From the NCBI GenBank assembly GCA_963971425.1, contig OZ020520.1:4754553-4818552 (forward strand): a stretch of 64,000 nucleotides of DNA. Direction: 5' to 3'. Made by a program: the position numbers and the translations under genes. Below the pieces are notes generated by a model. That model saw only the letters and a program-made list of their open reading frames with translations. It searched no databases and had not been told where the DNA came from. The DNA comes from Bryoerythrophyllum caledonicum (taxonomy: Eukaryota; Streptophyta; Bryopsida; Pottiales; Pottiaceae). Shown here in pieces: positions 2,512 to 48,872 of this stretch (position 1 is its first letter; each line of letters begins with the position of its first letter).

Positions 2512-2539
2512 GAAGTAAATGAAGCTCTTTCTTGAGTAG

Positions 2540-3295: not shown

Positions 3296-3364
3296 CCCCG
3301 GGTATTGGCCGGGTCGTGGTCCACCTTGTAGGGACCCATATCCCTGCAGGGAGCCAAGGCGGCC

Positions 3365-3564: not shown

Positions 3565-4179
3565 CTGCTCTCTCAGGCTCTTGCGGTGTGATTTAGTAAG
3601 CAATTTCCCCATCACAATCTCAAATTTTGGGTTAGTAAGATACGTAATACCTTGTATAATCATCTCATAGCTGTGAGGAAGTCCGTTGAGCACGAGGTTG
3701 ATGAAGGTCTTGTCTTCCATCTCTTCTCCATAGCCTTTGAGTTGGTCGCGCAAGTCCATTGCTGTGGTCAAGTAGTTGTTGATGTCTTCTCCTTCTCTCA
3801 TTGATATTGCGTGCAATCTATTGTTGAGCATCTGGATCTGCTGTTGATCTCCTGCAGAGAACATGGACTTGAGCATACTCCACGCATCAGTTGGGTCTTC
3901 ATGTTGGCTAACTGTTCTAAGTAAGTTGTCTCCTACGGACATAGTTAGACCTGTCAATGCACGTTGCTTTGCCTCCATCAGCTTCACTTCAGTGTAGACT
4001 ACGTTCGAGACAGTCACTGGATATTCAGATGTGACTACCTTAGTTCCTACTAGCGGCTATAATTCTTCTCTCTTCATTATTGCAGTCATCTTGATCTGCC
4101 AATTGCTATAGTTGAGAGGCCCGACTAGTTTGTTGGACTCTTCTACTTCACAATTCGAACTCTTGCTACTCTCTGCCAT
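3565..4179 (-). pseudogene. copia gag, N-terminal part
   Basis: The frame opens with ATG at 4179 (MAESSKSSNCEVEESNKL) and has the DUF4219/UBN2-type gag signature of plant copia elements, including LVGPLNYSNWQIKM, AWSMLKSMF, LNNRLHAISM and INNYLTTAMDLRDQL. It would form the nucleocapsid shell. An in-frame TAG at 4057-4059 replaces a codon between EEL and PLVG, so translation from the ATG would stop after about 40 residues. The frame then runs open to the assembly gap at 3564. I call it a pseudogene because of the TAG and the defective downstream pol. Confidence 0.85.
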
Positions 4180-8390: not shown

Positions 8391-10940
8391 TTAGAAGGCC
8401 TTCACGCTTCTACTCGGAGACTTGGGCGCCACATTGCGCAGCCCCTTGTGCGCCGCGCATCGCTTCCGCTCCGGGCGCGGCGCGTCAGGGCACACCGTCC
8501 CATCATCCAACCTCAGTCCGCAGATCAGCCGCCGCGACGTCGGCGACCTGCACGTCGGCGACGACGACAACTCCAGCGACTCCTCGCACGTCGTCGTCAA
8601 GATGCTCGTGTGATCCGCCCATTCTCGACTCCTTGCAAGCCGCAGCTCCGAGGTTCGCAGCCACGACGTGAACGACAAACTGCCTCGACGCTTGGGCGGG
8701 TCAGAGCCGGACGCTTTCCTTGGCTCGTCGCCGGTGGTGGTCGGATTTGGTGACCGCAGGTACGGGAAACACAAGGAAGCTCCACTAGGTTTGCCGGCTG
8801 GTTTTGGAATCTCATCAGAGGGGCTCATGTTGGCGACTCGGGCGGGGCGTTTCTGGATGGACTTCTTGTGAAGCAGGCAACGCTTGCCGCCCTTGACGGA
8901 AATTGCGCTGCAGGGGCGGCCGCTCTCGAGCACGATCATTCGGCAGCGCTTCACCGGGATGTCGAGCTTGGTGAACTCGGAGGACTTGGGAGAGGCTTTA
9001 AAATTTTGCTGGTTTGATCTGGAGCTGCTGCTGGTGCGGGTGCGGGTGATGGGCGCGCGCATGGGGTCGTCGAGGGGTCTGCGAGCGGGGATGGAAATGC
9101 CTGGCGGGGTTTTCTTGAAGAAAAGGCCGTAGTCGCCGAAGCAGGTGGACGACTTGGAGGAGTTTAGCGTGCCAGCTTGCACAATCTTTGCGAGGATGTC
9201 AGGGGAGCGTTGCCGGAATTTGCCGCCGCGCTTCCACGCGTAGTCGAAGAGGTCGATGAGGTCGGATTCTGCCTTCTCTGCTGTCGCTTTGCTCTCCGTC
9301 TGCACATGGATATCAGCTTGACAAAGTGATAAACCAGTCGAGAAGATGCTCCCTCTTTTGTTCACTCTAAATAATCATTAGATCAGAAGAAGCATCTGGT
9401 GGTCTAATCGACGACTCGTTTACTGGTCGTCTTTGAAAGTGAAGAAAGAGTAAATTGCACTCCTGATGAATAAGATAAATAAAATTACTAGTTTAGATGT
9501 GAATTTTATTATTCCAAAAATGAGGTTATCTTATTCAAACTTCAAAGTGGGTGACACGACTTGAATACGTGACTTCACAATATGAAATCATGGTAATTTT
9601 GTGGACTTGCCGCGGCCCATCGGAATGCTATGGAGCATCCCAGAGCGAAGACTTCGGAGAAAAGACGGGGCCCGCGCGGGAAGCGGCGTGATCCGATCAG
9701 GTCATTGGAGCTCATCTTCTCGTCCATGGCGTCCAGCGCACTCGCGTTGCTGCTCCTGGTGCTCATGTACCCGCCATCGCCAACGCTCGTGGTCCGCAAG
9801 TGCGCGGAGGGGAAGCTCCTCGACTCGTCTGGATCCGATTCGCTTGGACCAGCACCAGTAAACAATCTGGTCGATCTGAAAAAGAATCCAAATAACACTA
9901 GATTACTTTCATTCTTCACAATGAACAATCTGGTAAATCTGGGCAGAGTCCAGATGGTCGATATGTGAGATGATTGAGTTGGATGGAGAGAGATTATGGA
10001 CTATATTGTTTACCTGGCGCCTTCAAGGTGGGCTCCGGTTTGGCCGTACCGCTGCAGGTGGTGGTGGACGTGGTCGGCGCATCCGAGGTAGACGACCACG
10101 ACGTCGTGCGGTTTGAGGAAGACGGCGTCGCTAGTCTTCTGCGGAGGAAGCCAGGCGGGCGGCGTGACGCCCAGCTCATAGATGCCCGCGCCATCGTAGC
10201 AGGTCGGGAGGTTGTTCACTCGGAACCGGTCCGGAGTCCTGCCTGCCGCGTGCTCCTTCCAGTCTGTGGGACCAACAAGAACCTGCATATATGAGGCAAA
10301 TCATTTCAAACCGGCAGAACACCCCTACAACTAGAATTTCAAGTCGCGAAGGTAGACACTGACTCTAACGTCCCAATCATTGAGGTCTGCAATCTAGCAG
10401 ACCGAGTTTTTTTCAAGAGCTGGACATTGACCTCAAGTTTGCAGTCTTTCCAGGCCAGGGTGCGTAAGGGAATCGGGCTAATTAGTATACATTTCGACAC
10501 TGCCACGAATCGATCAAGATTGTGAAAACGTTAGCGACGGTCACGACCAGGCTTCGTTTTCTCTCAACCTTAGGTTACTAAACACCTCACATGTACCTGG
10601 CGGTTCTGCACAACTTTTCAAAAGCCAAGATCTGCCGTCTAGACTAGAGAATCATCGAGGCATGGCAGTTTCACTTCACTTCACATCCCTCCCTCCACTT
10701 CACTACGTCACGGCGTGCATTGTCCACTCCTCGTGCAATAATCAAATGGGACTCCGAGAATGGGAATCACAGCAAGCCAAATACGTGTGCAGCTCAATAT
10801 GGACGTACCTTCCAATCACAGAAACTCTTGTCATGCTTCACGTACGTATGATCCTCTCGCTTCAACCGCTGCTTCTTCACCCGCGCCGCACCCTGCGGCT
10901 TATCAGAAACCAGGCCCATACCCGCTCCAGGTAACGGCAT
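8391..10940 (-). CDS. ET: EFFECTOR OF TRANSCRIPTION (ET) family protein, four exons
   Basis: The model joins 10940-10809, 10282-10014, 9875-9611 and 9299-8391, all in phase, giving 524 aa. Exon 1 supplies VKKQRLKREDHTYVKHDKSF, matching the N-terminus of plant ET proteins, and runs into VLVGPTDWKEH. A GIY-YIG domain follows: GIY at residues 77-79, VYLG ending at 111, Arg122 in HLQRYG, then LFSEVFALGCSIAFRW and DLFDYAWKRGG. Two ET cysteine-histidine repeats lie at about 341-365 (CRMIVLESGRPCS to KRCLLHK) and 482-507 (CGLRLDDGTVC to KRCAAHKG). Family members are nuclear, bind DNA and modulate gibberellin-related and developmental transcription. Intron 3 appears to be GC-AG (donor GCAAGT at 9610). 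The start at 10940 is the first in-frame ATG after a stop, and an upstream non-coding exon is possible. Confidence 0.88.
9300..9610 (-). other. probable GC-AG intron in the ET gene
   Basis: The minus strand reads GCG|GCAAGTCC at the donor and TGTGCAG|ACGGAG at the acceptor. Joining here is phase 0 and links FRWAA to TESKATAEKA, the expected continuation of the GIY-YIG domain. No GT donor keeps the frame nearby. GCAAGT is the usual consensus of the minor GC-AG class. Confidence 0.75.
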
Positions 10941-13202: not shown

Positions 13203-15600
13203 CTACAGCCTTGACTTAGGGCTGTCTGAAGGTGAAATTATCACCTTTCCCCTCACTTCACGTTGCTTCACCATTGCAAAAGCTCTGTTCGCCTACACAA
13301 ACAAAGGTAAAACACATTCCTGTAAGCGAGGTTTTACAAAAACATACAAGTAATATCATACGTGTAATCCTAATCTCACCTTTGAAAGGAGAAACAAGGG
13401 TAGCATGCACTATTTAGGTCCCAGTGGCAGAATTCCCAATAAAAATTTAACTCATGAGAGTCTATGGGCTTACATTAGTCTCTAATAATAATCTTCCACA
13501 TTCACGCGAACATTCATTAGCACAAGAAATTCATTCAAGGTCAATGACGAATACTATCGTGACTATTCTTAAACAAAGCATACCTCATGAAGCGAGAAAT
13601 TGTGGGAGATGTGGACACGCAAACTGCCATTCGTCAACATTTCTAGCAACTCTTGCATCGAGTCTTGCATTACTTTGGGGTTGAACGTTTTGTAGCTTCC
13701 CCAGTACAAGCCATGAGCGGTCAAATTCTGCAAAGAAGATGAATTTTCAGCTCTGAATAGTTCTCAATTGATCTAAAATCAGCTAAAATGAGAGGAAGGC
13801 AGCTACTATTCATCAGGGTTGCTCTCATGCTTGAAACTCTTTCTTCACTCTCAGAGACGGCTCAAACTTGAGTTTAGAGACCACCAAGCTCATCCATACT
13901 CAATAGAAGGATTGAAGAAAGAGTCTTCAAAGAGGGGGTATCTTGTTGAAAAGCTGGGTGACTTAGGAAAGAACTCTAGTATGTGAACAAAACGGGTGCT
14001 GGCCAAACAGATCTCCAATTCAGTCGCAAGAATAACCTCACCTTGACGAGTAAAAAGGAGGGATATTGGGAATTTGCCATTACAAAAATGATATAGAATT
14101 GGCCAAATAGAATTTCTTGTTGCAAGCAAACTTTGGCAAGAGCAATCTAGGAAACTGACCTTAACGAGTAAAATGTTGGCAGGGATGGTGGGAATGTCGC
14201 CGCTAGCGAAGCCAATGACCAGGATTTGTGCGCCCCAGCCCAGCAGCTTCATGCTATCCTTGAACAGCTTGCCGCCCACCGGGTCGTACAGAACATCCAC
14301 ACCTCGCAGCTTCCGGGACTTCAGGAACGCCTTCACGCTGTTGATCAGGCCGCCATCGCTCGGGTCTACCACCAGGTCGGCTCCGAGCGTTCGCAGCAAC
14401 TCTGCCTTCTCCTTGCCCCTGGTGCCAAAACGCATGTAAATAAGAACTTCCACACGAGACTTCACCATGCTACACATACAAGAACTTCCAAACAGGGCTT
14501 CACTAAACATATCGTCATTTGAATAAGAACTTCCACAACAGGATGAAAATGAAGCAAGTGGCCACCACAGGGAAGAAATAGACGTGTTTTTGGTGAAGGG
14601 ATGAGCATGGCGCATACAGAAACTCAACAGTGATTCCAAAACCCCAAGAGGTTGCCCTAGCATTAGTTCTAAAATGTAATGGCCTTGACAAGATTACCTG
14701 GCCACACCAATTACAACTGCACCCAAGAGCTTGCCAATCTGCACAGCAGAAGAGCCTGCTCCCCCACCTGCACCTAGCACCAGAAGCACCTGCAAAACCA
14801 AAAAAATTGTAGAGAAACCTAAACATCCATTGTAGAGAAGACCATTGCTAGGGATATGGCACCAATGAACAAGAGAAGAGGCGTTGCATAACCTGGCCAC
14901 GTTGAAGATTGGCACGATGCACCAGCGCGACGTGAGAGGTGCCAAATGCGATGGGAAGTCCGCCGGCTTGCAGAAGGTCGCATCCCTCAGGCACCTTGTA
15001 TCTGCACCATGAGCCATGATGGCAACGGATTTTCAGCAAGAGAACATCCCAGAGCTTCAAAACCTAGAATGAATCAGAGCTTCAAACTCTGGCTAAAAGA
15101 AGAGCTGCAAACCATAGAATCAAGCATACAGACCGGCCGAGAATCAGAGCTTCAAACCCTGGAAAAAAATGAGAAATTGCAAAGGTTAGCAAGAGACCAT
15201 CCCAGAAGCTACAAACCCTAGGAATCACCATAGCTTGCACTCACACACTGGACTCATCCACCAGAAGCTCCTCCGCGAACGCCCCGCCCGTCGCCACCCC
15301 GCACACCGCGTCCCCGACCTTCACCCTCCGCACTTTCTCTCCCACCGCCACCACCCGCCCAGAGAAGTCCTCCCCGGGGACGTACGGCAACGGCGGCTTC
15401 TCCTGGTACTTCCCCTCCACCTGCAGGCCCGTGGCGAAGTTCACGCTGGACGCCACCACGCGCACCACCACGGACGTCGGGGAGGAAACGCTGGGCTTGG
15501 GGTGCGCCTCGTCGACGTAGAGCGGGGAGGTGTCGGACATGGGGAGGGTGGGGTCGCCCAGCTTGCGGCACACCACGGCGCGCATGGTGCCGGTCGCCAT
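13203..15600 (-). CDS. NADPH:quinone oxidoreductase-like protein, six exons
   Basis: Exons 15600-15245, 15001-14893, 14789-14698, 14418-14160, 13727-13584 and 13292-13203 join in phase to 349 aa, close to the plant GroES-like alcohol dehydrogenase family member At3g56460. The N-terminal GroES-like fold contains YVPGEDFSGRVVAVG and GDAVCGVATGGAFAEE. No catalytic zinc ligands are visible, so this is the zinc-free quinone oxidoreductase class of the medium-chain dehydrogenases. The nucleotide site is VLGAGGGAGSSAVQIGK (about 160-176). LYDPVGGKLF, HGLYWGSYK and the final GKVIISPSD are family hallmarks. Expected reaction: NADPH-dependent reduction of quinones or reactive enones in cytosol or organelles. 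The mini-exon ending the protein (ANRAFAMVKQREVRGK) is shorter than open-frame searches detect. All introns are GT-AG and the gene looks functional. Confidence 0.9.
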
Positions 15601-15715
15601 CGCCAGTCGGAAGCTGCAAAAGGAGTCTGTGAGCGAGGTGAAGACAGCGGTTTGGGAATCTTATCGGGTGATCCTGATCTCGCGTATCAGTAGGATCAAC
15701 CCTCTTCACCACTAA

Positions 15716-22310: not shown

Positions 22311-23045
22311 ATGACAAACTCTGAGGAGAGCAACAAGGTTGCTAAAGAATTGTCAGAGCTAGGCACTGACGTCCCACCGCACACCACTTCTAAAAAAGAC
22401 ATAGAAATCACGATTCCAGAGACCAGTAAATTAGATGGACCTGCAAACTATTAGATGTGGTCTTACTCCTTGACATCGGAATACAAGTTATTCTACAGGA
22501 TACAAACAAGAAGAGACACATTACCATCTTTTTTGGAGATAGAGTGACATCTACTTAATGAAGAGATGCAACTGGGAATGGACGCAGATAAAGAGGAAGA
22601 AGCACAAGCTTTGGTATTAAAGAAACAATCATGACGTCAAGGAGATCGAATAAAGATCGCGGGTACCCAACGATACTCTTGAGAGCAACGGCTCAATCGA
22701 AAGAGTGGCGGCGGAGCGCAGGCGCAAGACGGTGTAGCACGGGGGCGAGACAACAGAAGCCGTGGGGACAATCGACGCCTCCCTGCTCGCGGAAACCCTA
22801 CCACAAATGGTGCCCGTGACTACACCAGGTCCTATGACCGTAGACATGATCGTGATGGACATAGACAAGGGCATATTATAGGAGGATACTCCAGCAAAAA
22901 AGGAAAGGAGTGCCACTACTGTGGCGAGCCTGGGGACATTGCTCGGGACTGCATTAGAAAGGCCATCGACTGAGTAAAAATATTGGAGGGCAAGATCAAG
23001 TATCAGCAACCTCGGATTCAAGCGCAAGCAAACAAGATATCCAAA
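22311..23045 (+). pseudogene. copia gag relic
   Basis: ATG 22311 opens MTNSEESNKVAKELSELG and reaches the gag-like ITIPETSKLDGPAN before in-frame stops. After further frame changes a zinc knuckle HYCGEPGDIARDC is visible near 22920. It is interrupted at 23046 by the left end of the Ty3/gypsy element. Confidence 0.78.
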
Positions 23046-23152
23046 CTGTCGTGTAAAGAAAGATCGATAACCACAACAGATCGAGAGTCCTAACCAACAT
23101 CAAATAAACGAAAAACATACACTAAAACAAGTATACGTAATACACCCTCAAG
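23046..23152 (-). repeat. gypsy terminal repeat segment A (outer copy)
   Basis: This 107-bp segment, beginning CTGTCGTGTAAAG and ending CCCTCAAG, is repeated without any difference that I noticed at 23511-23617. It is absent at the right end of the element. Confidence 0.9.
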
Positions 23153-23509
23153 GAAAGATGTATGAATCACAAGAAGTCAAGCGACACGCACTCCACAAGG
23201 GGAGAATCAACGAGTGCAACTAAAGTAGAGAATGCGGAGCTTTCACTAATGATAAACCATCACTTTACAAGCAAAGAACTCACTAATCACTCTCTAACCT
23301 TACTCACAAAGCTTGACTTGACAAAGACGTCAAGTCAAGGACGTGTGCGGCGCTATACGCACACGCATACAACCCTAAGTGGATGAAAATCATCCACGGA
23401 TGAAAACGGTGCGCCGCCGTTCGTCCCTAAACACACGTAGATTAGTAACAAACTAATCTACGCTAAAATCTACGATACGGAGAGACCCTCGACGCCACAT
23501 CCCGTGACA
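23153..23509 (-). repeat. gypsy terminal repeat segment B (left copy)
   Basis: This 357-bp segment matches 32353-32709 with one substitution that I noticed (CCACATCCC versus CCACGTCCC). It contains two perfect 11-bp-stem hairpins, at 23312-23339 (loop AAAGAC, with the ACGT-containing word GACGTC at its edge) and 23436-23462 (loop AACAA). Confidence 0.93.
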
Positions 23510-23510
23510 A

Positions 23511-23617
23511 CTGTCGTGTAAAGAAAGATCGATAACCACAACAGATCGAGAGTCCTAACCAACATCAAATAAACGAAAAACATACACTAAAACAAGTATA
23601 CGTAATACACCCTCAAG
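23511..23617 (-). repeat. gypsy terminal repeat segment A (inner copy)
   Basis: Second copy of the 107-bp A segment, immediately inside segment B. It directly abuts the polypurine tract at 23618-23632. Confidence 0.9.
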
Positions 23618-23632
23618 TGCCCCCCCTAGCGG
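23618..23632 (-). promoter_or_regulatory. polypurine tract of the gypsy element
   Basis: On the minus strand it reads CCGCTAGGGGGGGCA immediately before the A segment. This is the expected primer site for plus-strand DNA synthesis and implies that the 3' LTR begins with the A segment. Confidence 0.7.
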
Positions 23633-23932
23633 ATAAAGAGACCCTCTATCCAGCTAGGACCAAACAACACTAATAAGACTAAACGCCACGGTGATGTCGC
23701 TGCAACAACTGTACGCATCCAGCCAAAGATGTCGCCGTCATCGAATCAATAAGCATATGAAGAAGTAACAAAGAGATGGTAGACCGGGTGCAATGTGAGC
23801 CCCATCTTTAATCGCCTTAGGCAATTTTATTGCCAATCCCTTGGTCAATCTCCACGTTGCCTATCCCTGAACCGAAACCAGGAACTCCAACTGGATGGCA
23901 ATGCACCACACAATGACCAGTCTATGAGGAAT
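23633..23932 (-). other. gypsy 3' untranslated segment
   Basis: About 300 bp between the stop of the RT-integrase-PHD frame and the polypurine tract. No coding or repeated structure noticed. Confidence 0.6.
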
Positions 23933-26900
23933 TCAAGCCGTTTCATCGGGTGAAACGTGACTCGAAGACCTCCGACAATGAGGGCAAGTCCAATCCCCGG
24001 ACGGTAGAGTAGAGAGAGGCGGCGTCAAGCAAGCCATATGCCAACCACGCTGGCAATGGTCACAAAGCAACATAGTAGCCGCACCCTTCTTCTCACCACA
24101 CACAAAACACGGAAGACCCTGTGGCACAACGGCCAACTCAGGATGCACGGAGCCATCAATGGGCAAATGGCAGGGCGCGCAGTTCTTGGAGTGCTCCCGA
24201 CACTCCCGGCCATCTTTGCCTTCCAGCAACAAGATGCCACTGGGCAACACATCCTTCACACGAAGAATGGTGCGCCCGGCCTTGACGTCTAACGTCGTAG
24301 GCGCCTCACGTTGCAAATAAACGTAATCTCCAGTGGAGAAACGCCGCAACTGAGGTCGATAAGCGCCGCTGCGAATGCGAGCGTACCGTAATGTGTCGCG
24401 GTGCTGAGCGATGGATAAATTCTCCATGGCCATTGGCATGGCCCGCTTGAAGAACTCCGCTCGGTCACGCAGACACTGGATCCAAACCTCTGGATCATCC
24501 AAGTCCACAACTGGGGCCAACTTCTCCCGTACAGAACTGGGTAGAATCGGCTCCCGTCCGTACAACAACTGATACGGACTGAAAGCGGCCAAAGAGGCCT
24601 GCCGGCTAAACCGGTATCCCATGGCGATCCATGGTATCATCAGATCCCAATCACGGTGGCCACCCTGAAGTAATCCATACTTCCGTAGTCCACGCTTGAC
24701 GGTCTGAACCACATGCTCCGCCAAACCGTCTGCTTCCGGATGATCCCGAGAAGTGGTACGGTGGTCAATCAAAGCCTTGGTGCACAAAGCCTCGAAAGCA
24801 CCAAGGAACTCACGCCCTTGGTCAGTCAACACCTCAGCTGGGGCTCCAAAACGAGCGAGCACCCGGTCAAGGAATGCCATGGCCGCCAACTCCGAGGAGT
24901 TCTGTGGTAGTGCCACAAGCTCAATCCACTTGCTGAAATGCTCCACCATCACCAACACGTACTTGGCTCCACGTGGGGTGACAACAAGTGGCCCGGCAAA
25001 ATCCAGAGACCAACGGTAGCCCAAACCCATGATGGGCAAAGGCTGCAACTGTGGTGACAAGGTGTTGAAGCTGGATCTGACCCGATCACAGACTTCACAC
25101 CGTAAAACATACGTGGCAACGTGCTGATACATGCCGGTCCACCAATATTGACTGCGCAACATCGAATGAGTCCGCCGGACGCCAAAATGACCAAGGTCTT
25201 TGTGTACCTGCCGTACCAACGAAGCCCTCTGATCCGGTCTGGGAACTATGCGCCTAGTTCCATCCGGCCACAACCGAAATAGAAGGCCGTTCTCCCAACG
25301 GAACCTCGCTATCCGGTGTCCAACTCGATCGCGCTCCATGGCCGAAAGAGCGGGCGGAAGTGTGCCATGTTGCAGCTTGTGCAAGACTGGAACGTCTTCC
25401 CACACGTCGCTAACAACCTGGGCCTTGTCCGGTTCCTCATCCGCTGCCATATCAGGCAACGTCGATGTGGATCCAGACATCAATGTGAGGTAGGCTGCTG
25501 CATGCCACCCCGGGACTGACTCTCTGTCACAATCCCCATGCCACCTGGCACCAGTCAAATCCTCCTCCGATGGACTTGGATTGCGAGATAGACCATCCGC
25601 ATCCAAGTTTGTGATGCCCGCCCGGTGTACAACCTCAAAATCATACTCCTGGAGCAACAAAGCCCACCTGGCAAGCTTGCCAGTAAGCTTGTCAGACTCC
25701 ATGAGCCACTTCAAAGGCTGGTGGTCGGTCACCAAAGTAAAACGTTGCCCATACAAGTAGGGCCTAAAATGAGCTATGGCCCAAACCGCAGCCAAGGCCT
25801 CCCCCTCATAGGACGAATAGTTGGACTCCGCGTTGTTGTTGCTCTTAGAAGCAAACGCCACAACGTACTCCCGTCCCTCATCATCCTTTTGAGTCAACAC
25901 GGCTCCCAATCCTATTGCACTCCAATCTGTGTCCAAGTGGAAAGGCCGTGTAGCATCTGGACGCTGCAGTACAGGCGCTGAACCGAGCTTCAGCTTCAAA
26001 GTAGCAAACGCCTGTTGTTGCTCCCGTCCCCAAGTCCATGGCTGATCCTTCCCCGTGAGAATAGTCAAAGGCTTAGCAATCAAGCTAAAGTTCTTGACAA
26101 ACCGGCGATAGTAATTCGCCAAGCCAAGAAAAGCTCGAAGCCGTGACACGTCGATTGGGGCTGGAATCTTCTGCAACGCATCCACCTTGGCCTGTTGTAC
26201 GCCAAGACCCCCTGGAACAATCATATGCCCCAAATATGGTAACCGGTCGTGAAAGAACTTGCACTTGCCATGGTGCAAGCGCAATCCCCACTGTCGTAAC
26301 CTCTCAAACACTGCCTGAAGATGCCTCACATGCTCGTGTGGGCTGCTACTAAAAATGATAACATCATCAATGTAGCATCGGGCAAACGGTAAACCGGTCA
26401 ACACCCGGTCCATCACCCTCTGAAACTCAGCGGGTGCGTTCTTGAGGCCAAATGGAAGAAACTTCCAATGGTAGAGCTGATCTCTCCCATCTAGATAAAC
26501 TCCCCAGAACGCGGTCTTCACCCGGTCGTCCACCATCAATGGTAATTGGTGGTAACCGGACCGCAAATCCAGAGTACTAAATACTCTGGCGTGTCCCACC
26601 GCATCAAACAACTCCTCTGGCGTGGGCATGGGATACCGATCCGACTTGGTCTTACGATTGACCGGCCTATAATCCCCACACATCCGCTTCTCCGTCCAGT
26701 TGCCAAAGATGTCTTTCTTCGATGGCATCACCGTGGCACAAGCGTACTCGCCGTTAGAGAGCTCAATCAAGCTGGCGTCCAACAACTCCTGACAACGAGT
26801 TTGAACCCCAACTTTCTCAGAGAGACTGAGCTTGTACGGTCGTCGGAAGATCGGGTGATCGTCCTCCAACTGAATGTAAATCGATTTGCCTCTGTAGCCC

Positions 26901-27076
26901 TCCAAATCATGGAGACTAAAGGCAAAACAACTACGATATGAACGTATAAACGCTCGTACCCTTCGTGCCTCGGCACCAGTAAGATGTGGCCCCAAATCCA
27001 AAGACCAATCATCAAACTCCGTGGTCTCCTTCTCCACCGTAGAAGACTCACCGCGTACCGGCACGGCCGGTGATTG
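23933..27076 (-). CDS. gypsy reverse transcriptase-RNase H-integrase with C-terminal PHD finger
   Basis: About 1,047 codons in frame with the methyltransferase frame across UAG; residues here are numbered from GTG 27064, which is not a start. RT: TLDLRSGYHQLPL (Asp166), LPFGLKNAPAEFQRVM, YIDD 231-234. RNase H: HLDTDWSAIGLGAVL (Asp378), YEGEALAAVWAI, VTDHQPLKWL, NLDADGLSR. Integrase: zinc-binding H621/H626 and C656/C659; catalytic Asp688, Asp748 (LTDQGREF) and Glu783 (DGLAEHVV), spacing exactly DD35E. After the integrase C-terminal barrel comes a PHD finger, Cys4-His-Cys3: C986, C989, C1001, C1004, H1009, C1012, C1027, C1030, with GWHMACL and GDWTCPHC. PHD fingers usually read histone H3 tails. 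Here it occupies the place of the chromodomain in chromoviruses, so a targeting role is likely. The first AUG is codon 113, so expression needs readthrough. Confidence 0.94.
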   Translation of the reverse strand, partial: QSPAVPVRGESSTVEKETTEFDDWSLDLGPHLTGAEARRVRAFIRSYRSCFAFSLHDLEGYRGKSIYIQLEDDHPIFRRPYKLSLSEKVGVQTRCQELLDASLIELSNGEYACATVMPSKKDIFGNWTEKRMCGDYRPVNRKTKSDRYPMPTPEELFDAVGHARVFSTLDLRSGYHQLPLMVDDRVKTAFWGVYLDGRDQLYHWKFLPFGLKNAPAEFQRVMDRVLTGLPFARCYIDDVIIFSSSPHEHVRHLQAVFERLRQWGLRLHHGKCKFFHDRLPYLGHMIVPGGLGVQQAKVDALQKIPAPIDVSRLRAFLGLANYYRRFVKNFSLIAKPLTILTGKDQPWTWGREQQQAFATLKLKLGSAPVLQRPDATRPFHLDTDWSAIGLGAVLTQKDDEGREYVVAFASKSNNNAESNYSSYEGEALAAVWAIAHFRPYLYGQRFTLVTDHQPLKWLMESDKLTGKLARWALLLQEYDFEVVHRAGITNLDADGLSRNPSPSEEDLTGARWHGDCDRESVPGWHAAAYLTLMSGSTSTLPDMAADEEPDKAQVVSDVWEDVPVLHKLQHGTLPPALSAMERDRVGHRIARFRWENGLLFRLWPDGTRRIVPRPDQRASLVRQVHKDLGHFGVRRTHSMLRSQYWWTGMYQHVATYVLRCEVCDRVRSSFNTLSPQLQPLPIMGLGYRWSLDFAGPLVVTPRGAKYVLVMVEHFSKWIELVALPQNSSELAAMAFLDRVLARFGAPAEVLTDQGREFLGAFEALCTKALIDHRTTSRDHPEADGLAEHVVQTVKRGLRKYGLLQGGHRDWDLMIPWIAMGYRFSRQASLAAFSPYQLLYGREPILPSSVREKLAPVVDLDDPEVWIQCLRDRAEFFKRAMPMAMENLSIAQHRDTLRYARIRSGAYRPQLRRFSTGDYVYLQREAPTTLDVKAGRTILRVKDVLPSGILLLEGKDGRECREHSKNCAPCHLPIDGSVHPELAVVPQGLPCFVCGEKKGAATMLLCDHCQRGWHMACLTPPLSTLPSGDWTCPHCRRSSSHVSPDETA

Positions 27077-27085
27077 CTACTTGGT
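27077..27085 (-). promoter_or_regulatory. predicted stop-codon readthrough site, first half of UAG-CAA-UCA context
   Basis: The minus strand reads ACC AAG TAG at 27085-27077 and continues CAA TCA CCG at 27076-27068. UAG followed by CARYYA is the strong readthrough motif first defined in tobamoviruses. The frame on both sides is the same and the first AUG downstream lies about 115 codons on, inside the RT domain. Confidence 0.8.
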
Positions 27086-29773
27086 AGCAGAGAGGGCATT
27101 AATGCCCCCACACCCCTCACTCACAGGATCTATAGAAAATCCCGTGTCGTGATGATAAAACTGGGAAAAGATATCCCGAGCATCCTCACGGCCAAAGTCC
27201 TCTGCCAAGGCTGCAAAGACACGCTGAGCACGAAGCTCTTCAGCTGCATGCCTCTTCAAACGAAAAAACAACTCCGCTTCCTCGATCTCTGTGAGATGTG
27301 GCACCGCTGCCCCCTGACCATCAGAGTCTGCCCCCAGCACGCGTGGATGGTCACTCGAACGGCGTTGAGCGGCGAAACAGAGGCCACATATCCAAACAAG
27401 GGTGTTGAGGTCAATGGCTTGACCCAACAAATAACGGCGTTGGCCCTCAGAGATATCCGGTGCGGCAGTGGTGCCTGTCAAAAAGCCCATCGTCCGCTCC
27501 CTCTCATCGGCAGAAGGCTCCTCGAAAGTTTGGGAAGAAGAATCCCAAACCATGCCCGGACCGCGTGACCTGAAGGCAAAAGAGCCTGGATAGCACATCA
27601 AAGTGGGAAATGCCCCCCGAGTGAAACCAACGCGGTTGACCACCGCCAATGGTGGCTCATCATCCTTTGTAACCTCTGTGGAAACACGGTGGTCGTCTAA
27701 AATGTCATCGACCTCACGGCACACGGGCCGTTGCACTTGAGCAAGTGCAGAAGTGAGCGTCGTGGATGATGCCATGTTGGTCCAAATCCAACGTGGCCGA
27801 TGGGCGTAAGATCCCAACGCTGCGGCATCAACAAACGTAGGGGGACCAAGAAGGTGATGGATGTACGCCCCATCCTCACGCACTTTCGTCCGTATATCCC
27901 CCAATGGGGGAACATTCTCAAAAATGTACCCCGGTGGTGTCGATTGGTGGGTAATCCACCACTGGATGAGCCTGAGCAAATCCGCAAAGAGACCCGACTG
28001 TGGATCATCCAAGCCACGTCCACTTCCCGCCCGTGAATGGCCTTGGCAAGGCCATCCCGCAATCACCAACTCCACGTGACCTAACCGGCGAAGATCATCC
28101 TCACTGATCAACGTCACATCACGTGGCAACTTGCCAAAACACCCTCGAATCGCAGAAGATGGTAACTGCTCTGGATACAACGCCAGAAGACGCTGAATGT
28201 GATGGTGAGCGGGACAGTTGGCTGCAAAGCCACTATCTACGTGGATATACCGTCGTACCTTGAGCCCGGCCTCCAACACAGCCGCGAGCCCTGTACTGAT
28301 ACCGGCAAATAACTCCACAAGGGTAATACCCTCATCCGATGGTCGCCACTGAATAGTACGAGCCAACAACGGAGTGGAAGAGTCCATTGAAGGCAGTGGA
28401 GCATCAAGAGCATCCACGATCTCTCCACTACGACAAGTGAGCTCCAACGGTGTCCCCCACGGCGGAAGGGGATCCTTGCAACGACGGGCAGGGATCGCCA
28501 ATGGTGGGTGCTCGCGTGAATCCTCCACCACAGACATAAATGCATATGTCTCCTCCAAAAGTGAAGAAGCACACGGCAAGTCTGATGCCAGAGCACTACA
28601 CCCAAACATAGCGTCTGTCGTTGAAATCACTGCGCTAGCTGCAAAGACTACGGAGATGAGCTCCTTCCTGCCATCACCGGCAGACCACCCTGGCCTAATC
28701 CAGGCCTCCTCTGTCCAGTTATCCACCCCAAATCCAAGTGGATATAGCGCCTGCTGGCCCACCAAAATATCGTAGTTGGTGGCGCCAGTAACAACGCACT
28801 GAAGGGAGACATGGGAGAACAACGGACCAGATCCTACGCCAAACATCAATTGCAACGGATGTCGGGTGTAGCCCATGGCCTTCTCCGTGCCCCCAACCGA
28901 TGTAACAATCGTGAACGGACAAGGCTCGAGGTCCAAAGCACCTAGACCCAAATCCTGGGCTAGCTGCTTGCCAATCATCACTGGCTGAGCCCCGGAATCC
29001 AACATAACACGTAGGGGGGTAGCTCGAGTGGAGTTGCCATCCGTACGGCCTACCACCATGACTCCATTGTCATTCACCAAACGTACCACCCCTGGACGCA
29101 CACTACGTCGCTCCCGTGTCGACCGGGCTACAACATCAGACAAATAAGCCACTCCAGAGATCAAGGCCCGATCCCCGGACGACTGCTCCATAGGTGTGGA
29201 AGTGGCATTGGCCTCAAACGCGGAAATAGCCTCCGCCGCCAACTTGGCCCGCATTGCCACCAAATCCTCCTCAATAGGTGGAGCGGTCACTACCTGTGAC
29301 ACCTCCAACGACGGAATGGGCACCTTGCCTTCCAACATACTACCCGCCAAGTGGAATACACCGGATGGTTGAAAATCCAGTGTGAGAAAGTCCACACCAA
29401 CAAACACCGGCAATTGCAACACCTTATACGCCAAGGTGTGTGCAACATCTCGAGGACTGGAAGAAACCGGTGGGACTGGAATCGAAGTGGGAGCGGTAGC
29501 AGAAGTAGCCGCATCCGCGATGCTGAACGAAAGAGGTAGCCGGGACTGACCAATGTGGTCCGGCAAACCCGCATGGCGTGAACGACTGCTACTACCCGGC
29601 ACAGTGGAAGAGGGTGCCACCGCCTGTGTAATGGTCTGAGTACGAGTGGCAACCGCTGCCACTACCTCCCCCGAAGCGCCATACAAGTAGCGATCTAAGG
29701 CTGAAGATGAGCCCTGACCCGTCACCACAGGCCGTGTGTCTGCCACTTGCCCCGAAGAAGCCATCGCGCTCAT
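27077..29773 (-). CDS. retroviral-type aspartic protease fused to a C5 cytosine DNA methyltransferase, 898 aa
   Basis: Residues 1-200 are a Ser/Thr/Ala-rich linker. The protease spans about 240-350, with the catalytic VMLDSGAQPVMIG (Asp259) and a later YDILVGQQALYPLG. Residues 483-800 form a complete C5-methyltransferase. Motif I is TLVELFAGISTGLA (S-adenosylmethionine site), motif IV IAGWPCQGHSRAG (catalytic Cys576), motif VI YIFENVPPL (Glu619), a motif VIII-like SYAHRPRWIWTN (655-666) closer to the AHRARYFWGN pattern of DNMT3 enzymes than to QRRxR, and motif X RRYLLGQAIDLNTL. The target-recognition stretch between VIII and X is short, about 110 residues. The tail to 898 is charged and helical. 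It ends ALSATK-UAG followed in frame by CAAUCA. Expected activity is transfer of methyl from AdoMet to cytosine C5. A role on the element's own cDNA is inference. Confidence 0.93.
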   Translation of the reverse strand: MSAMASSGQVADTRPVVTGQGSSSALDRYLYGASGEVVAAVATRTQTITQAVAPSSTVPGSSSRSRHAGLPDHIGQSRLPLSFSIADAATSATAPTSIPVPPVSSSPRDVAHTLAYKVLQLPVFVGVDFLTLDFQPSGVFHLAGSMLEGKVPIPSLEVSQVVTAPPIEEDLVAMRAKLAAEAISAFEANATSTPMEQSSGDRALISGVAYLSDVVARSTRERRSVRPGVVRLVNDNGVMVVGRTDGNSTRATPLRVMLDSGAQPVMIGKQLAQDLGLGALDLEPCPFTIVTSVGGTEKAMGYTRHPLQLMFGVGSGPLFSHVSLQCVVTGATNYDILVGQQALYPLGFGVDNWTEEAWIRPGWSAGDGRKELISVVFAASAVISTTDAMFGCSALASDLPCASSLLEETYAFMSVVEDSREHPPLAIPARRCKDPLPPWGTPLELTCRSGEIVDALDAPLPSMDSSTPLLARTIQWRPSDEGITLVELFAGISTGLAAVLEAGLKVRRYIHVDSGFAANCPAHHHIQRLLALYPEQLPSSAIRGCFGKLPRDVTLISEDDLRRLGHVELVIAGWPCQGHSRAGSGRGLDDPQSGLFADLLRLIQWWITHQSTPPGYIFENVPPLGDIRTKVREDGAYIHHLLGPPTFVDAAALGSYAHRPRWIWTNMASSTTLTSALAQVQRPVCREVDDILDDHRVSTEVTKDDEPPLAVVNRVGFTRGAFPTLMCYPGSFAFRSRGPGMVWDSSSQTFEEPSADERERTMGFLTGTTAAPDISEGQRRYLLGQAIDLNTLVWICGLCFAAQRRSSDHPRVLGADSDGQGAAVPHLTEIEEAELFFRLKRHAAEELRAQRVFAALAEDFGREDARDIFSQFYHHDTGFSIDPVSEGCGGINALSATK

Positions 29774-29776
29774 CTA
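29765..29776 (-). promoter_or_regulatory. gag stop overlapping pol start (UAG-AUG-AGC)
   Basis: The gag UAG (29776-29774) is followed directly and in frame by AUG (29773-29771). Either suppression of the stop or termination-reinitiation would express the protease-methyltransferase frame. The context does not match CARYYA. Confidence 0.65.
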
Positions 29777-31117
29777 CTTCTTCAACTCCGCCAATTCGGA
29801 TTGAAGTGACTTCACGGCATCCGATCCAACAGCCGAAGATCCTGGGCGCTTCTCCGGGTGAAGAGAAAAACAGTTCTCATCACAGTGGCCAGGCTTGCCA
29901 CAGTGAGAGCATGTCACAGGCTTCTTCCCCTTGCTCCCAGTCTTCTCCGTAAGCTTGGCCGCCTCGGTCTTGGGCTTGGCCTTCCTCGCCACTGCCTCCT
30001 TCTTCTTCGGACAATTGAGGTCCCCCTTGGTGTGACCAGCCTCAACACAAGCCCAACAATGCACTACCTTTTCAGGTTGTGCTTCTGCCAAGCTACCAGT
30101 CGCCGTGGCAAGCTTTTTGGGCTTCGGAGCATCCATGAGCGACGTGACCAAGTCTGTGGCCTCGCTCACACCCAACGTCCGGTCAAGCGCTTCCACCTCG
30201 GCGAACGCCTGAGCCAAGGTCGCGTTGCCGTGATACCGGAAGAGCAAATGCGGAATGATCAACTCTACCATCCGCTTGTCGAGCTTGGAGATAAAAATCT
30301 TCACAAGTTGGCGCTCCGTGAAGACATCACCAGCCTCCGCCGCCAACCGCGCCAACCGTGTGTACATGGTGCGTGGTGTGTCTTTCTTCTCACGGCGGAA
30401 GTCCTGGATGCGGTGCATCTGATCGCGCCGAAACCCCCCGTACTCCACCTCCAGATGCGCCATGAACTGCGCCAAAGGATCGAAGGCTGGCGGGTTGCCA
30501 ACCGCCACCAATGCTGCACGTGTGGCTACGGCCAAACGAGACATGGCCCTCATGCCAGCTTGTTCCCCCACAATGGCAACACCCTTGCCCTTGGAGTCCT
30601 CACCGAGGAAACTCTCCTCTTCCATGGGCTCCTCGGTGGAAGTCGAGAGTTGGGCAACCGCACTCTCCTTGAGTGCAGTGACCAACTCCACACGTTGGCG
30701 CCAATACTCCTCAACCGGGCGCAACTCTGCCTCGTGCTGCGTGGTCCACCTCCCATATGTCTGAAGTGCCTCCAGCTCCAAATGCTGGGGCAAAAGCTCG
30801 AACGCGTACCAATCGTTGAACGACGGCGTCCGCTGGCGCTTCTCCTTCATCCAAGTTTGGAATCGGAGACGCCAATCGGGTAGGGAGATGCCCCCAGCCC
30901 GTCCCGAGAACCTGTCTCGCACGACATGACGGTGATCGTCCTCCATGTCGTCAAACGTGCCCACACTCCAGACCCAAAGCCTACGGTCGGTATCCAACGC
31001 CGAAACAGGCTCAAAAGCCTCGTCGGTATCTGACCCTGGCCCAAAGTCTGTGGTGGAAGCACTCTCCGAGTGGTTTGGTGAGGGAGAGCGGTAATACCGA
31101 CTCCGGGTACTCACCAT
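29774..31117 (-). CDS. gypsy gag polyprotein (nucleocapsid), 447 aa
   Basis: Gag packages the element RNA. I start at ATG 31117 (MVSTRSRYYRSPSPNHSE), a start typical of plant gypsy gag; the open frame extends slightly further upstream but without an ATG. The centre has the Ty3 gag core: WRLRFQTWMKEKRQRTP, FDPLAQFMAHLEVEYGGF, MYTRLARLAAEAGD, FISKLDKRMVELIIPHL. The C-terminus has a non-standard knuckle CWACVEAGHTKGDLNC (six residues before the last Cys) and a canonical CSHCGKPGHCDENC. It ends SELAELKK-UAG, and the next codon in the same frame is AUG of the protease-methyltransferase frame. The stop could be suppressed to give a gag-pol fusion, or ribosomes could reinitiate at the overlapping UAGAUG. 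Confidence 0.92.
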   Translation of the reverse strand: MVSTRSRYYRSPSPNHSESASTTDFGPGSDTDEAFEPVSALDTDRRLWVWSVGTFDDMEDDHRHVVRDRFSGRAGGISLPDWRLRFQTWMKEKRQRTPSFNDWYAFELLPQHLELEALQTYGRWTTQHEAELRPVEEYWRQRVELVTALKESAVAQLSTSTEEPMEEESFLGEDSKGKGVAIVGEQAGMRAMSRLAVATRAALVAVGNPPAFDPLAQFMAHLEVEYGGFRRDQMHRIQDFRREKKDTPRTMYTRLARLAAEAGDVFTERQLVKIFISKLDKRMVELIIPHLLFRYHGNATLAQAFAEVEALDRTLGVSEATDLVTSLMDAPKPKKLATATGSLAEAQPEKVVHCWACVEAGHTKGDLNCPKKKEAVARKAKPKTEAAKLTEKTGSKGKKPVTCSHCGKPGHCDENCFSLHPEKRPGSSAVGSDAVKSLQSELAELKK

Positions 31118-32352
31118 AAACAAAAACCACCTCGGGATCTATCTACGGGTACTATCTAAAGGGTAAGGGTACGAACGGGCAACCTGCATCTGCAAAATCA
31201 CCAAGCTGTGTGGATCACCGGTCATCACCTTCGGCTACCACAGGTCCAACCACATCCCTCCACATAGAAAGGTCTTGCCGGCCATAAATCCGACTTCACC
31301 CCTACGGTACCCTATCACAAACTGGAACAACAAGAAATGGGGCCACCGGAAAACACCGGCAACAAGCCCGCAACACGGGGGAGGTACCGCACAAGAATCT
31401 AGAAATCAAAACCGGATCTTCTCCCCCCAACAACATAAAAGCAAGAAAATGAAAGAGACAGCGCCACTGGCACACGCCTGCAGTGGATGCCTCAAAGTAG
31501 CAAAACCTGCAAATCAAAGAGAAACACTGAAAGTGTTTTCCCCTAACGTCTAAAACTAAGGGAGTAGTGGAGATTGACCGTGGTGTTTAAAAACACTATC
31601 CATCCAATGAAATCACATACATTGGTAGATAATCACGACAAACGCCAAACTAATGCTAAAATTAGGTCAAATGGCGGAAACCCTAACTATAAGCATAAAT
31701 GTCACTTTCATCCGAGTGACAATGCCTTTGAAATCTACTCCCAAAGTTTAGCACTATCTTTTTTTTTTTTTAAAAGATCACATAACATGTGATAGTTTTT
31801 GGACGTCCCAAAAACTTGCCAAATATTTTTTTTTTTGTAAACTAAAATTTCTTTACATCATTAGTCTTAGAATTTCCTTGCGAACTCAAATCCGCAATCA
31901 GAATCAAAAAATATGTAAAACTCCAAAAGTTGAAATTTTAAGTGTTCATTCCAGGGACTCCCTGAAATTTCAGCACTCAAACTAACGGAATTGGGAACTT
32001 CGGCACGGTTTAGGGTCCCTAACGGAATTGCGACCCTTGTGCATATGCGTACCCGGATGAAAACTGCTCCGGATGGATGAAGTCGTGCGCAGCGGATGAA
32101 ACGTCGACAATGGATGAGAAATCGCAAATTGGATGAAACTGCTGAAACTCCAGAAACTCCAGAACTTCTTGCTCCACAACTTCCAATCTCCACAACTTCT
32201 CCAAAAATCGTCCGATTTGGGCGCGGTCGGTGGCGTTGGCTCCGTCTCCACACGCTCTATTCGTAAATTCAAAGTACCCACAATTTTTTTCAAATCACTC
32301 AATGTCAAATTTGAGAACTATAGCAAGAAACGTGGGAGGGTCTTCGTCAAGT
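31118..32352 (-). other. gypsy 5' leader between terminal repeat and gag
   Basis: A long untranslated leader of about 1.2 kb separates segment B from the gag start. It is AT-rich near 31.7-32.0 kb, where it has T/A runs, and contains several CATCC/GGATG words. I could not identify a tRNA primer-binding site beginning TGG next to the repeat, which reads ACTTGACGAAGACCC on the minus strand. Confidence 0.55.
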
Positions 32353-32709
32353 GAAAGATGTATGAATCACAAGAAGTCAAGCGACACGCACTCCACAAGG
32401 GGAGAATCAACGAGTGCAACTAAAGTAGAGAATGCGGAGCTTTCACTAATGATAAACCATCACTTTACAAGCAAAGAACTCACTAATCACTCTCTAACCT
32501 TACTCACAAAGCTTGACTTGACAAAGACGTCAAGTCAAGGACGTGTGCGGCGCTATACGCACACGCATACAACCCTAAGTGGATGAAAATCATCCACGGA
32601 TGAAAACGGTGCGCCGCCGTTCGTCCCTAAACACACGTAGATTAGTAACAAACTAATCTACGCTAAAATCTACGATACGGAGAGACCCTCGACGCCACGT
32701 CCCGTGACA
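32353..32709 (-). repeat. gypsy terminal repeat segment B (right copy)
   Basis: Right-hand 357-bp copy, ending GTGACA next to copia sequence. No A segment flanks it on either side; the inner neighbour is unique leader sequence. Confidence 0.93.
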
Positions 32710-35700
32710 AAAGGTAAAAATTCAAAACCCGACTCTGACTCATATCAAAGAGCAATGAGAGCGCCGGAAGCGCATTAGAAACATATCTATGTGAGCTCAA
32801 TGAGATTGAAGCAAACATCACTATGGGTCAAGAGGGGCCTGCAAGGGTTCTTGATTTAGGAGCTACACATCATGTAACTGGGAATCCAAACCTAGTGCAA
32901 GATTTCCAAGCATGTATTGGTAGACGAGCCTATGTTAGCCGCTGGTGGAGAGGCACATAGAATTGCAGGAAAAGGAAATGTAAGCATGAATTTCCCGGGT
33001 GGGAAATACAAGCAATTAAATAATGTTGTTTATTTGCCTGGTATTTGTTGCAATTTATTATTGGTTGGGCGTATTACGGATGAAGGTGCAATGTCTGATT
33101 TAAGCGTAAGGAGGTGTTAATCAGAGGTGAACATACACAAGACATTATTGGTTATGGAACTAGGATGCATAGCGGCTTATATCAGTTAGACCTTTCACCG
33201 GTTCATGAGGCCCACTTTGTATAAGTTAGTGATCGCATGCCATCCAAAGTACTTCTTTGGCACAAAAGGCTTGGTCATGTTAATTTCAAGACATTACACA
33301 TCATGTCTCACCAAAATATTGTGAGGTTTAGCCAAGTTACCTTATGTAGACATCATTTGTGAAACATGTCAACAAGGCAAATAAGCAGGTTTTTCCTTCT
33401 CCCTAAGTACTTCTTAGACTACCAACATCCTTTAAGTTATTCATAGTCATGTATGTAGTCCCATCAAGAAACCATCTTTCAATGGCGTTAGATATTTTGT
33501 TACTTTAATCAACAATTATAGTAAAAAACTATGGGTTTCACTTCTAAAAACCAAGGACAAAGTTATTGACAAATTCAAAAAGTTTAGAAACCGCATAGAA
33601 AATCAGACACAAAAGAAGATTATTACACTTTGTACGGACAACGGCACCGAATATATGTCATGAGCCATTCAACAACTCCTCATTGATTTTGGCATTCACT
33701 ATGAAATTACAGAGCATTACATCCCTCAAAGCAATGGTCTTTTGAAGCGAAAAAAATGATCTATAGTCAAGATGTCCTGATGTCTTTGCTTTCAACACAA
33801 CATTCCATATTACTTATAGCCAAAGGCTATCAAGACTGCCACTTATATTACTAATCGAGTCCCTACTTGTGCTTTAACCAACATGACACCAAAAGAAGCT
33901 TTTTCCGATATGAAATCCAATTTACCCCAGCTTCGTATATTTGGCACACGAGTTTTTGTCCACATTCCCAAAGAGAAAAGGTACAAAATGTCTCCCAAAT
34001 CCTCCAATTGTATTCTTCTTGGTTTAGATGAAGGATAAAGATGCTATTGTCCACATACACATCTCCAAGGATATTGAGATCGATGAGGGAAATTCATGCT
34101 ACACCTCCTCCAACATTCCTCCACTATCTGAAACTAGACAAGGTCACTTCGGATTAGTGATCCCTTAGATAGACCCTAGACAAGTATCCAATCCCTCCAT
34201 CGATAATACTCAACTTGAAGACGTGACACATCAACTTTCCCCCCTATCACCTCCGCCTTCACCCCACACAACTACAACGGAGTTCAAATCTCACTCCAAC
34301 ACTCTGTGGCACACATCGACCAAGGATCCATCACCAAGCCACTCATCACCACCTCTCTGTCATTTCAGTCGTATCAAACGACCTTTCGTGAGACTCAAAG
34401 GTTTAGTTGGCAATATAGAGGATTCACACCCCACTTATAGAGTAGCATTAGACAACCCCAATTGAGTCTAGGCAATGCATGAGGAAACTAAGAGTTTGCA
34501 AGATATGAAGACATAGACACTCATAGAATTACCTCGTGGACATCATGCCATCTCATCCAAATGGGTGTTCAAATTGAAACCAACAATGGTTTAGAGCGTC
34601 TACTTGCCACAGGTTTCCAACAAGTAGTAGGTATAGACTATCATGAAACTTTTGCATCAGTAGCCAAATACAACACCATCAAGATCGTCACCGCTCTTGC
34701 AGGAACTATGGGTTAGGATATTCATCACATGGATGTCAAAAGTGTTTACTTCAACACTCACTTAGAAGAGAAAGTATATATGCGACAACCACCTGGGCAC
34801 ATTGTTAAAGGACAAGAGCACTTGGTATGTGAACTACACCGATCGTTATATGGCCTCAAACAATCTGCAAGGATCTGGAATCACGAGATTATTAGGTGGC
34901 TTTGCAAACACGGCCTTCACGGACTCATGCCAACAATAATCTATATTTTCTATGTCGTGGGCACCTATATATCCTTCTCATTCTACATGTTGATGATGTT
35001 TTTATTACTGGCAATTTCACAATCAAAATCTCATGGCTTTGAGGGAGGTTCCATTCCCAATAGGAGATGACCTATCTTGGTCTTGTTTCAAAGTTTCTTG
35101 ATATTGAGTACACATTATCCCCACAAGGAATCAACATCCATCAAACCAAATACACAGAATCCGTACTTATTGAATATGGAATGCAAGACTGCAATCCGAC
35201 CTACACGCCTTTTCCTGCTCGATTCACGACTTTTGCATAAATCAACACTCCCAATGTTAATCCTACTAGCTACCAATCCCTTCTCGGTAAATTGTCCTTC
35301 CTCACTACTATACATCATGATCTTACTTTCGTTGTCAACCTTTTATTACAGTATAATTTTGCTCCACAAACAGTACATCTCCAGGCAACGAAACAAATTC
35401 TAACATATGTGTGGGGGACCACATCTTAGTGCCCTTTCTATCCCCGATCCGACACTTTTTCCCTCCTTGGATACAGTGATGCTGATTGGGGGAGAGATTT
35501 AGACCAACACAAGTCCACTGGAGCTTTTATTTTCACAATCAACAATACTCCAGTCACGTGGAACACAAAGAAGCAAACATGCATCGCATTGTCCTCTACT
35601 AAATCGCATTGTTCACATTGTCCCCTACTAAATCCGAGTTTTGTTCCCTTGTTGAGGCTACAAAAGAGGCAAGATGGATTCAAAATTTTATTTCAAGAAT

Positions 35701-35975
35701 TGGGATTTGACAAGAAAAAATCCATTCAGTTCATAGGTGACAATCAAAGCGCAAATAAAATTTCCAAAAATCCACAGTTCCATTCCAAAACCAAACATTT
35801 TAAAATTCATCTCAACTTTATTTAAGACATGGTTGAAAGAGGTTTTGCGACCATTTTTTACACTCCTATTGATTGCCAACTGGCCGACATGCTTACAAAA
35901 ACTTTAGGCCGTCTTAAATTCACGTCATGCAAGCAACTTCTAAATTTAAGTCCAACAAACATTGTTGATCCTTAA
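32710..35975 (+). pseudogene. copia pol relic (protease, integrase, RT, RNase H)
   Basis: This continues the copia coding region on the far side of the gypsy element. Recognisable pieces in order: protease region VLDLGATHHVTGN (active-site Ser-Gly altered to Leu-Gly), pre-integrase LLWHKRLGHVNFKTLH, integrase CTDNGTEYM, RT DVKSVYFNTHLEEKVYM and LYGLKQSARIWN, catalytic box HVDDVFITGN near 34985, RNase H YSDADWGRD and CIALSSTKS, and the tail HSKTKHFKIHLNFI and QLADMLTKTLG. Many frameshifts and stops separate them. No functional product is possible. Confidence 0.88.
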
Positions 35976-47800: not shown

Positions 47801-48872
47801 AGCAATTTTATTTTAAAAGCACTAGAGAAAAAGGAATCAGCAAACCTTGGAATTCATCGACGTTCTGAACATCTCACCTGCTATGGAAGACTCGAGGGCG
47901 GTAGAGAACCATGATGAAACTGGCTGTTTGACAGCTTACCCATCTGTGCAGGTTACATATGGCTTCAGCTCTTGTTTGGTCGGGAAACGATGGATGATTA
48001 TCACGCGCTTGTTGATGGGGTAAGAGCAGCCTTGGTCACTTATTCTCTTCATCACTCAAGAAAAGTATGCATCACCACAAGAAATCATCACATCACAAAT
48101 TGCAGCTGTATATAGTTGCACTCTTTTTAACCACTCCCAACTGCAGCTGCAAAGAACCACTTCATTTGTTCACTATAACGTCTGCAGTGTTGGATATCGT
48201 AGTCAGTGTAGTGGACTGTGTTTTGCAAGGAGACTAATTATCATGCTAAACCAACACCATTGGCCCCTGTGTGTAGGATACTTGTGCAGATACTATGCAG
48301 CGTCAGCACATTGCCTCTTTACGCCCTTGTGAGCCAGGTATGGAACTCCTGACATTAAACTGTAGTGTCATTGTTAGTGTACTACTTGATGTCAATGTGG
48401 ATTTAGGCATCTTTCACAGGGGCTATTGGTGAGTAACTAGTTCTACTCTGTTATATGTGCACAGTTGGGATCCAACATCAGAATGAACCATGTGCTGTCT
48501 GAGAAGGCGGTGGGCGCAATTCACAACTGGCGGAAAACAGCCAAAAAGAATCAAGAAGAGGGTCATCCAGACCATACCATAGACATAGAGATGCCAAGGT
48601 CAAATGGGCACCATGAAGTGTCAAATGGAGAGAGTAATGGAGTTCATCATCCTCATAAAGACTCCGGCACCATATCTCATGAAAAGTCCCCGTCTCTTGG
48701 TGAGCATCTTAAAACCTCCAGGAATGAATTTCCCGATGTCCATTTTCAAAATGAAAAATCCATGAAAGATAGGCTTCAAATGACAAAAGTAATTTATTCT
48801 GTTGTTTTTCCTTTTGGGTGCTGTTCAGGCACTGGTGAGGAAATCCGAGAGCAAGGCCCGGCAGCCAAATAG
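44855..48872 (+). CDS. MLO: MLO family seven-transmembrane protein, 13 exons, 597 aa
   Basis: Exons 44855-44977, 45284-45341, 45456-45640, 45762-45945, 46075-46259, 46346-46431, 46567-46616, 46878-46918, 47185-47493, 47738-47773, 47952-48019, 48277-48337 and 48465-48872 join in frame with GT-AG introns. The N-terminus [20 protein letters not shown] and first membrane helix are classic [102 protein letters not shown] and [15 protein letters not shown] mark successive membrane segments and loops. The cytosolic tail has the calmodulin-binding site around W484 ([14 protein letters not shown]). MLO proteins act in the plasma membrane as calcium channels in pathogen susceptibility, pollen-tube reception and root touch responses. 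The final exon could contain a 40-nt removable segment (48789-48828), but that is too short for a plant intron. Confidence 0.93.

Follow-up and report, generated by a model that had tools for sequence, protein, structure and literature searches.

A gypsy-type retrotransposon with a methyltransferase in its polyprotein

We analyzed a 64,000-nucleotide stretch of the genome of the moss Bryoerythrophyllum caledonicum (contig OZ020520.1, positions 4,754,553 to 4,818,552; hereafter the window) and found on its minus strand, at ~23045-32709, a Ty3/gypsy-type retrotransposon of ~9.7 kb whose polyprotein includes a domain resembling DNMT3 DNA methyltransferases. The gene order, read from Pfam matches together with position and motifs, is gag, protease (PR), methyltransferase (MT), reverse transcriptase (RT), RNase H, integrase and a PHD finger, spread over three frames (Table 1). 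An initial annotation of the window had placed a methyltransferase-bearing gypsy element at 27077-29773. That frame exists, but it is only the middle one of the element. As claimed, it joins an LDSG protease motif (Asp259) to C5-methyltransferase motifs in a single open frame; the motifs lie where they had been placed, and the Pfam model DNA_methylase (PF00145) matches well above its cut-off (E 1.5e-9, 38.2 bits vs 22). Two Pfam protease models also match the frame, both below their own cut-offs (best E 2.3e-4). The assignment to the gypsy type was borne out as well: RT, RNase H and the zinc and core domains of integrase were found by Pfam in the last frame, at 23933-27064, the YIDD of RT and the D, D and E residues of integrase are present, and the order PR-RT-RNase H-integrase with a DDE integrase is that of Ty3/gypsy elements. 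The Pfam scan gave no model above cut-off for the first frame, which we identify as gag by where it lies, by its motifs and because relatives have it fused to PR-MT.

Table 1. Features of the retrotransposon in order along its coding strand (window coordinates; aa, amino acids)
Feature	Position	Strand	Details
Repeat A1, 5' end of element, 357 bp	32353..32709	-	1 mismatch vs A2
gag frame, 449 aa	29774..31123	-	CWACVEAGHTKGDLNC and CSHCGKPGHCDENC zinc-knuckle-like motifs
In-frame TAG between gag and PR-MT	29774..29776	-	not in close relatives
PR-MT frame, 898 aa	27077..29773	-	open frame; Pfam; database relatives
Protease active-site motif LDSGAQ	28985..29002	-	Pfam and motif reading
Putative DNMT3-type C5-methyltransferase domain	27353..28336	-	~residues 480-807 of PR-MT
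TAG stop of PR-MT	27077..27079	-	sequence
CAATCA hexamer after PR-MT stop	27071..27076	-	fits CARYYA readthrough hexamer
RT-RNase H-integrase-PHD frame	23933..27076	-	reading frame common to gag and PR-MT
PHD finger, C-terminal end of integrase frame	23975..24109	-	Pfam PF00628, 4.5e-10
G-run AGGGGGGGCA immediately before B1	23618..23627	-	sequence
Repeat B1, 108 bp	23510..23617	-	identical to B2
Repeat A2, 357 bp	23153..23509	-	1 mismatch vs A1
Repeat B2, 3' end of element, 108 bp	23045..23152	-	identical to B1

The element is gypsy-type by its domains but is not a standard long terminal repeat (LTR) element. Its repeats are laid out on the coding strand as A-coding-B-A-B with TGTC...GACA as the outer ends, instead of the two identical flanking LTRs and ~5-bp target duplication of Ty3/gypsy insertions; by inspection there is no 5-bp duplication at the ends, where at most TTT is shared. 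Split direct repeats in the order A-coding-B-A-B are those by which DIRS elements are defined in the text of de Mendoza et al. 2018 (PMC5890265). However, a Pfam scan of the three frames with matches admitted up to E 10 gave no tyrosine recombinase family, and a DDE integrase is found instead. The observed order is what would result if a two-LTR circle were opened at the junction of B and A. The G-run before B1 is possibly the polypurine tract. Because the repeats are 99.7-100% alike, the insertion is a recent one. The initial annotation had argued for recent activity from an intact copy; the recent insertion stands, while the extra in-frame TAG between gag and PR-MT makes this copy young but not fully intact.

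The methyltransferase resembles DNMT3 enzymes

Motifs I, IV (Cys576), VI, VIII, IX and X of the MT are all present and in unrearranged order, as in DNMT3 enzymes. The plant DRM family, a rearranged DNMT3, was considered and set aside, since motif I precedes motifs IV to X. Motif VIII reads AHRPRW, which the initial annotation had likened to DNMT3, and the tree, the sequence and the predicted fold all agree with that type. By sequence and predicted fold the MT is closest to DNMT3, with 20-25% identity to animal DNMT3A/3B, and in a phylogeny its partner is DNMT3A rather than DNMT1, DNMT2 or the bacterial enzymes, the branches of this tree being long and its reference sequences hand-entered. Judged from these comparisons, the MT belongs to the DNMT3 type. 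It appears to share with animal DNMT3A/3B the fold, the motif order and the AHRxRxxWxN form of motif VIII, but motif IV is PCQ rather than PCN, no ADD or PWWP match was found in the PR-MT frame with Pfam, and the domain is part of a retroelement polyprotein.

Its grouping also bears on the possibility that the domain methylates RNA, either genomic RNA or primer tRNA, and not DNA. Gag binds RNA, and the MT would be made together with Gag. RNA methylation is moreover raised by de Mendoza et al. for LINE relatives in the text of their paper (PMC5890265). However, the MT groups with DNMT3 and not with the tRNA enzyme DNMT2, and we regard action on RNA as improbable.

A family in bryophytes and its known counterparts

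Relatives were collected by a database protein search in which scoring was limited to the 8000 candidates with the most shared words. At least 43 were found, the closest being 85-89% identical with the same gag-PR-MT order (the best, 89% over the entire query stretch). Among the matches listed, 14 of 43 are labelled as Marchantia polymorpha (11), Calypogeia fissa (2) and Sphagnum troendelagicum (1). The window's MT falls in a tree group of 21 rows (support 100/99), and a second group of 12 rows (support 98/100) consists of the Marchantia, Calypogeia and Sphagnum rows used plus one further row; six more rows lie outside both. By protein similarity, DNMT3-bearing gypsy elements form a conserved family that extends over liverworts, Sphagnum and the present moss. 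This recurrence speaks to whether the locus could be a chimera, of assembly or of genes, in which a host DNMT merely adjoins a gypsy element. Such an artifact might be suspected from the 200 N and the nested elements within the window, but the MT frame is continuous and the gag-PR-MT fusion recurs in several independent contigs, including a 27-Mb Marchantia contig (P0024). We give a chimera almost no credence.

In all 17 relatives that were compared, protein conservation is higher in the MT than in gag, the linkers and the tail. It is close to that of the protease, and on a par with the other functional parts of the element. Over 39 rows, the motif IV Cys is kept in 37, the motif VI Glu in all 39 and both motif VIII Arg residues in 38, the remainder being gaps. 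Three rows (P0037, P0045 and P0046), which fall outside the window's group and the liverwort-Sphagnum group, have ECQ instead of PCQ in motif IV, with Glu for Pro and the catalytic Cys kept. In two other proteins, P0047 and P0042, the position between PR and RT is given up and the MT lies between RNase H and integrase, which indicates that it moved or was captured more than once. The MT family has a second architecture in these two proteins; both have a PHD finger, and P0042 carries a Tudor domain as well.

The precedents to which the initial annotation had appealed, DNMT-bearing retrotransposons of dinoflagellates and of a charophyte, do exist (PMC5890265). As described in the text of that paper, KnitGypsy-Dnmt3 of Klebsormidium nitens is likewise a gypsy element with a DNMT3-type domain in its polyprotein, and its Figure 4 legend gives the DIRS-like A-coding-B-A-B repeats seen here. 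By that published description, the present element shares three features of the KnitGypsy-Dnmt3 group (gypsy domains, a DNMT3 domain and DIRS-like repeats), in a moss host as opposed to an alga. The Klebsormidium DNMT3-type domain is intronless, with a Ka/Ks below 0.2 (PMC5890265). No protein labelled Klebsormidium was among the matches listed, and a word search for PHD and readthrough in the text of PMC5890265, figures excluded, found neither. SymbioDIRS-Dnmt3 and SymbioLINE-Dnmt, described in the same text, are also retrotransposons with a DNMT. SymbioDIRS-Dnmt3 has the A-coding-B-A-B repeats and a DNMT3 domain, as here, but these dinoflagellate elements carry tyrosine recombinase or LINE-type domains where the present element has a DDE integrase, and their captures are stated to be independent of the Klebsormidium one (PMC5890265).

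A probable readthrough stop and a PHD finger

The gag, PR-MT and RT frames are all in one reading frame, separated by single TAG codons. The PR-MT stop is followed by CAATCA, a match to CARYYA expected by chance after 1 stop in 512 if the four bases are equally common. In the text of PMC4132726, CARYYA is described as a readthrough-promoting hexamer of plant viruses, tobacco mosaic virus among them, that works with UAG. Because TAG-CAATCA, a context of the tobacco mosaic virus type, separates PR-MT from RT, the MT is probably made at the Gag level. The RNA downstream of the stop folds somewhat better than shuffled sequences, a weak signal (z -2.1, with 6 of 200 shuffles as good). The motif IX string occurs in 23 of the 25 best matches, and in every one of the 23 the protein end follows it at a distance of 111-190 residues; 8 of the first 10 matches terminate in ALSAT followed by K, E or Q. 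From this, the stop that follows the MT looks conserved, although not universal, and some protein ends may be contig ends. The TAG between gag and PR-MT is different. Since in seven close relatives (P0001-P0005, P0007 and P0008) one protein of 1330-1354 aa spans gag through MT, it is probably a recent defect, as a result of which the present copy has probably lost the ability to make gag-PR-MT in full.

The solved structures nearest to the PHD finger in the PDB include CHD4, PHF12, KDM5, UHRF1, PHF21A and AIRE, and fingers of several of these types read unmodified H3 tails. The ADD domain of DNMT3 enzymes, which is PHD-like, has this role too. The element may possess a reader (PHD) and a writer (MT), located on different parts of the polyprotein. 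Chromoviruses are gypsy elements with a chromodomain, a chromatin-reading domain, after the integrase. The present element resembles them in having a putative chromatin reader at that place, with a PHD finger instead of a chromodomain; no chromodomain match was found in its frames with Pfam.

Surroundings of the element

The gypsy element is enclosed by a copia-like element recognized by eye, with a gag zinc knuckle on the left (22629-23040), protease and RT remnants on the right (32711-35830) and 131-bp repeats at 22057 and 36033 that are 89% alike. Another copia-like element, also recognized by eye, lies at 534-4056 (minus strand) with integrase, RT and gag pieces; a run of N breaks into it. 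Pfam PF19239 (24.4 bits vs a cut-off of 21.4) marks a GIY-YIG frame (8394-9374, minus strand), which we take to resemble plant EFFECTOR OF TRANSCRIPTION proteins. It has 10 database matches, the one labelled with an organism being a Physcomitrium patens protein at 47%, and together with an MLO-like piece it points to a moss as the likely source of the window. The window also holds a zinc-type dehydrogenase (quinone-oxidoreductase-like) gene in pieces (13893-15660, minus strand; ADH_N and ADH_zinc_N), a piece like the plant family MLO (48441-48869; E 0.0012, below the Pfam cut-off) and a run of frames at 53991-61243 (minus strand), of which, among those scanned, only an NIF phosphatase piece (56729-57307) scored above the Pfam cut-off.

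A model for packaged self-methylation

The reading we favor, though with confidence only a little above an even balance, is of a recent Ty3/gypsy-type insertion from a lineage that captured and kept a DNMT3 domain, with the MT packed at the Gag level and methylating the element's own cDNA. Translation would mostly stop after the MT, giving as much MT as Gag for packing into particles, and RT, integrase and the PHD finger would be produced by readthrough. In the particle, the MT would methylate the cDNA, probably de novo at CG, and this could mark the copy as self or protect it before integration. The PHD finger may direct the integrase toward chromatin that bears a particular H3 tail.

Several observations weigh against this model. 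No methylation was obtained with the Klebsormidium enzyme in yeast, a result its authors deem inconclusive because human DNMT3B failed there too (PMC5890265, text). Self-methylation should deplete CpG, and no depletion was seen: the observed/expected CpG ratio is 0.86 in the element vs 0.70-0.73 in two flanking stretches. TpG is 1.39 vs 1.16-1.18 in these stretches, but CpA is not raised. In the MT tree, with its hand-entered references, DNMT3A sits on a very long branch, and the margin of DNMT3 over bacterial enzymes in the fold match is small. In P0037 and P0046, MT and RT belong to a single protein that no stop interrupts, and readthrough was judged from its context in one copy, relatives having been seen as proteins.

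The yeast result also fits a catalytically weak MT kept for DNA binding or particle structure, like DNMT3L beside DNMT3A, as does the Glu for Pro in three motif IV rows. However, a purely structural role would not need the motif IV Cys, motif VI Glu and motif VIII Arg pair, nearly all of which are kept, and such an enzyme seems to us rather unlikely. The small fold margin and the protein ends that may be contig ends take a little weight from packaged self-methylation and add some to this reading. Alternatively, the MT could be released from particles and act in trans, altering host methylation or silencing competitors, with an indirect gain for the element. SymbioDIRS DNMT3 enzymes do methylate CG in the yeast genome, but K. 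nitens has such elements and yet a land-plant-like methylome (both in the text of PMC5890265). The fusion of the MT to Gag-PR in relatives should also hold it in particles unless it is cleaved, and we find action in trans unlikely.

Beyond packaged self-methylation of single copies lies a more speculative possibility, to which we give a limited share of belief: that DNMT3-bearing gypsy elements are one old green-plant lineage predating land plants, in which the MT, as a Gag-level component of the particle and no accessory of Pol, and the integrase PHD finger would let copies arrive methylated and be placed by histone reading. The kind of element is already known. Within the literature searched, what is added is the bryophyte range (liverworts and Sphagnum besides this moss), the position of the MT on the Gag side of a probable readthrough stop, and the PHD finger; these, together with the unordinary ends, also go beyond the initial annotation. 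With the family in liverworts, Sphagnum and the present moss, the question of why a transposon carries a silencing tool moves into Marchantia, a tractable laboratory plant, and the TAG-CARYYA signal gives a testable prediction of the amount of enzyme made. If the old-lineage proposal is true, this would be a retroelement writing and reading its own epigenetic state.
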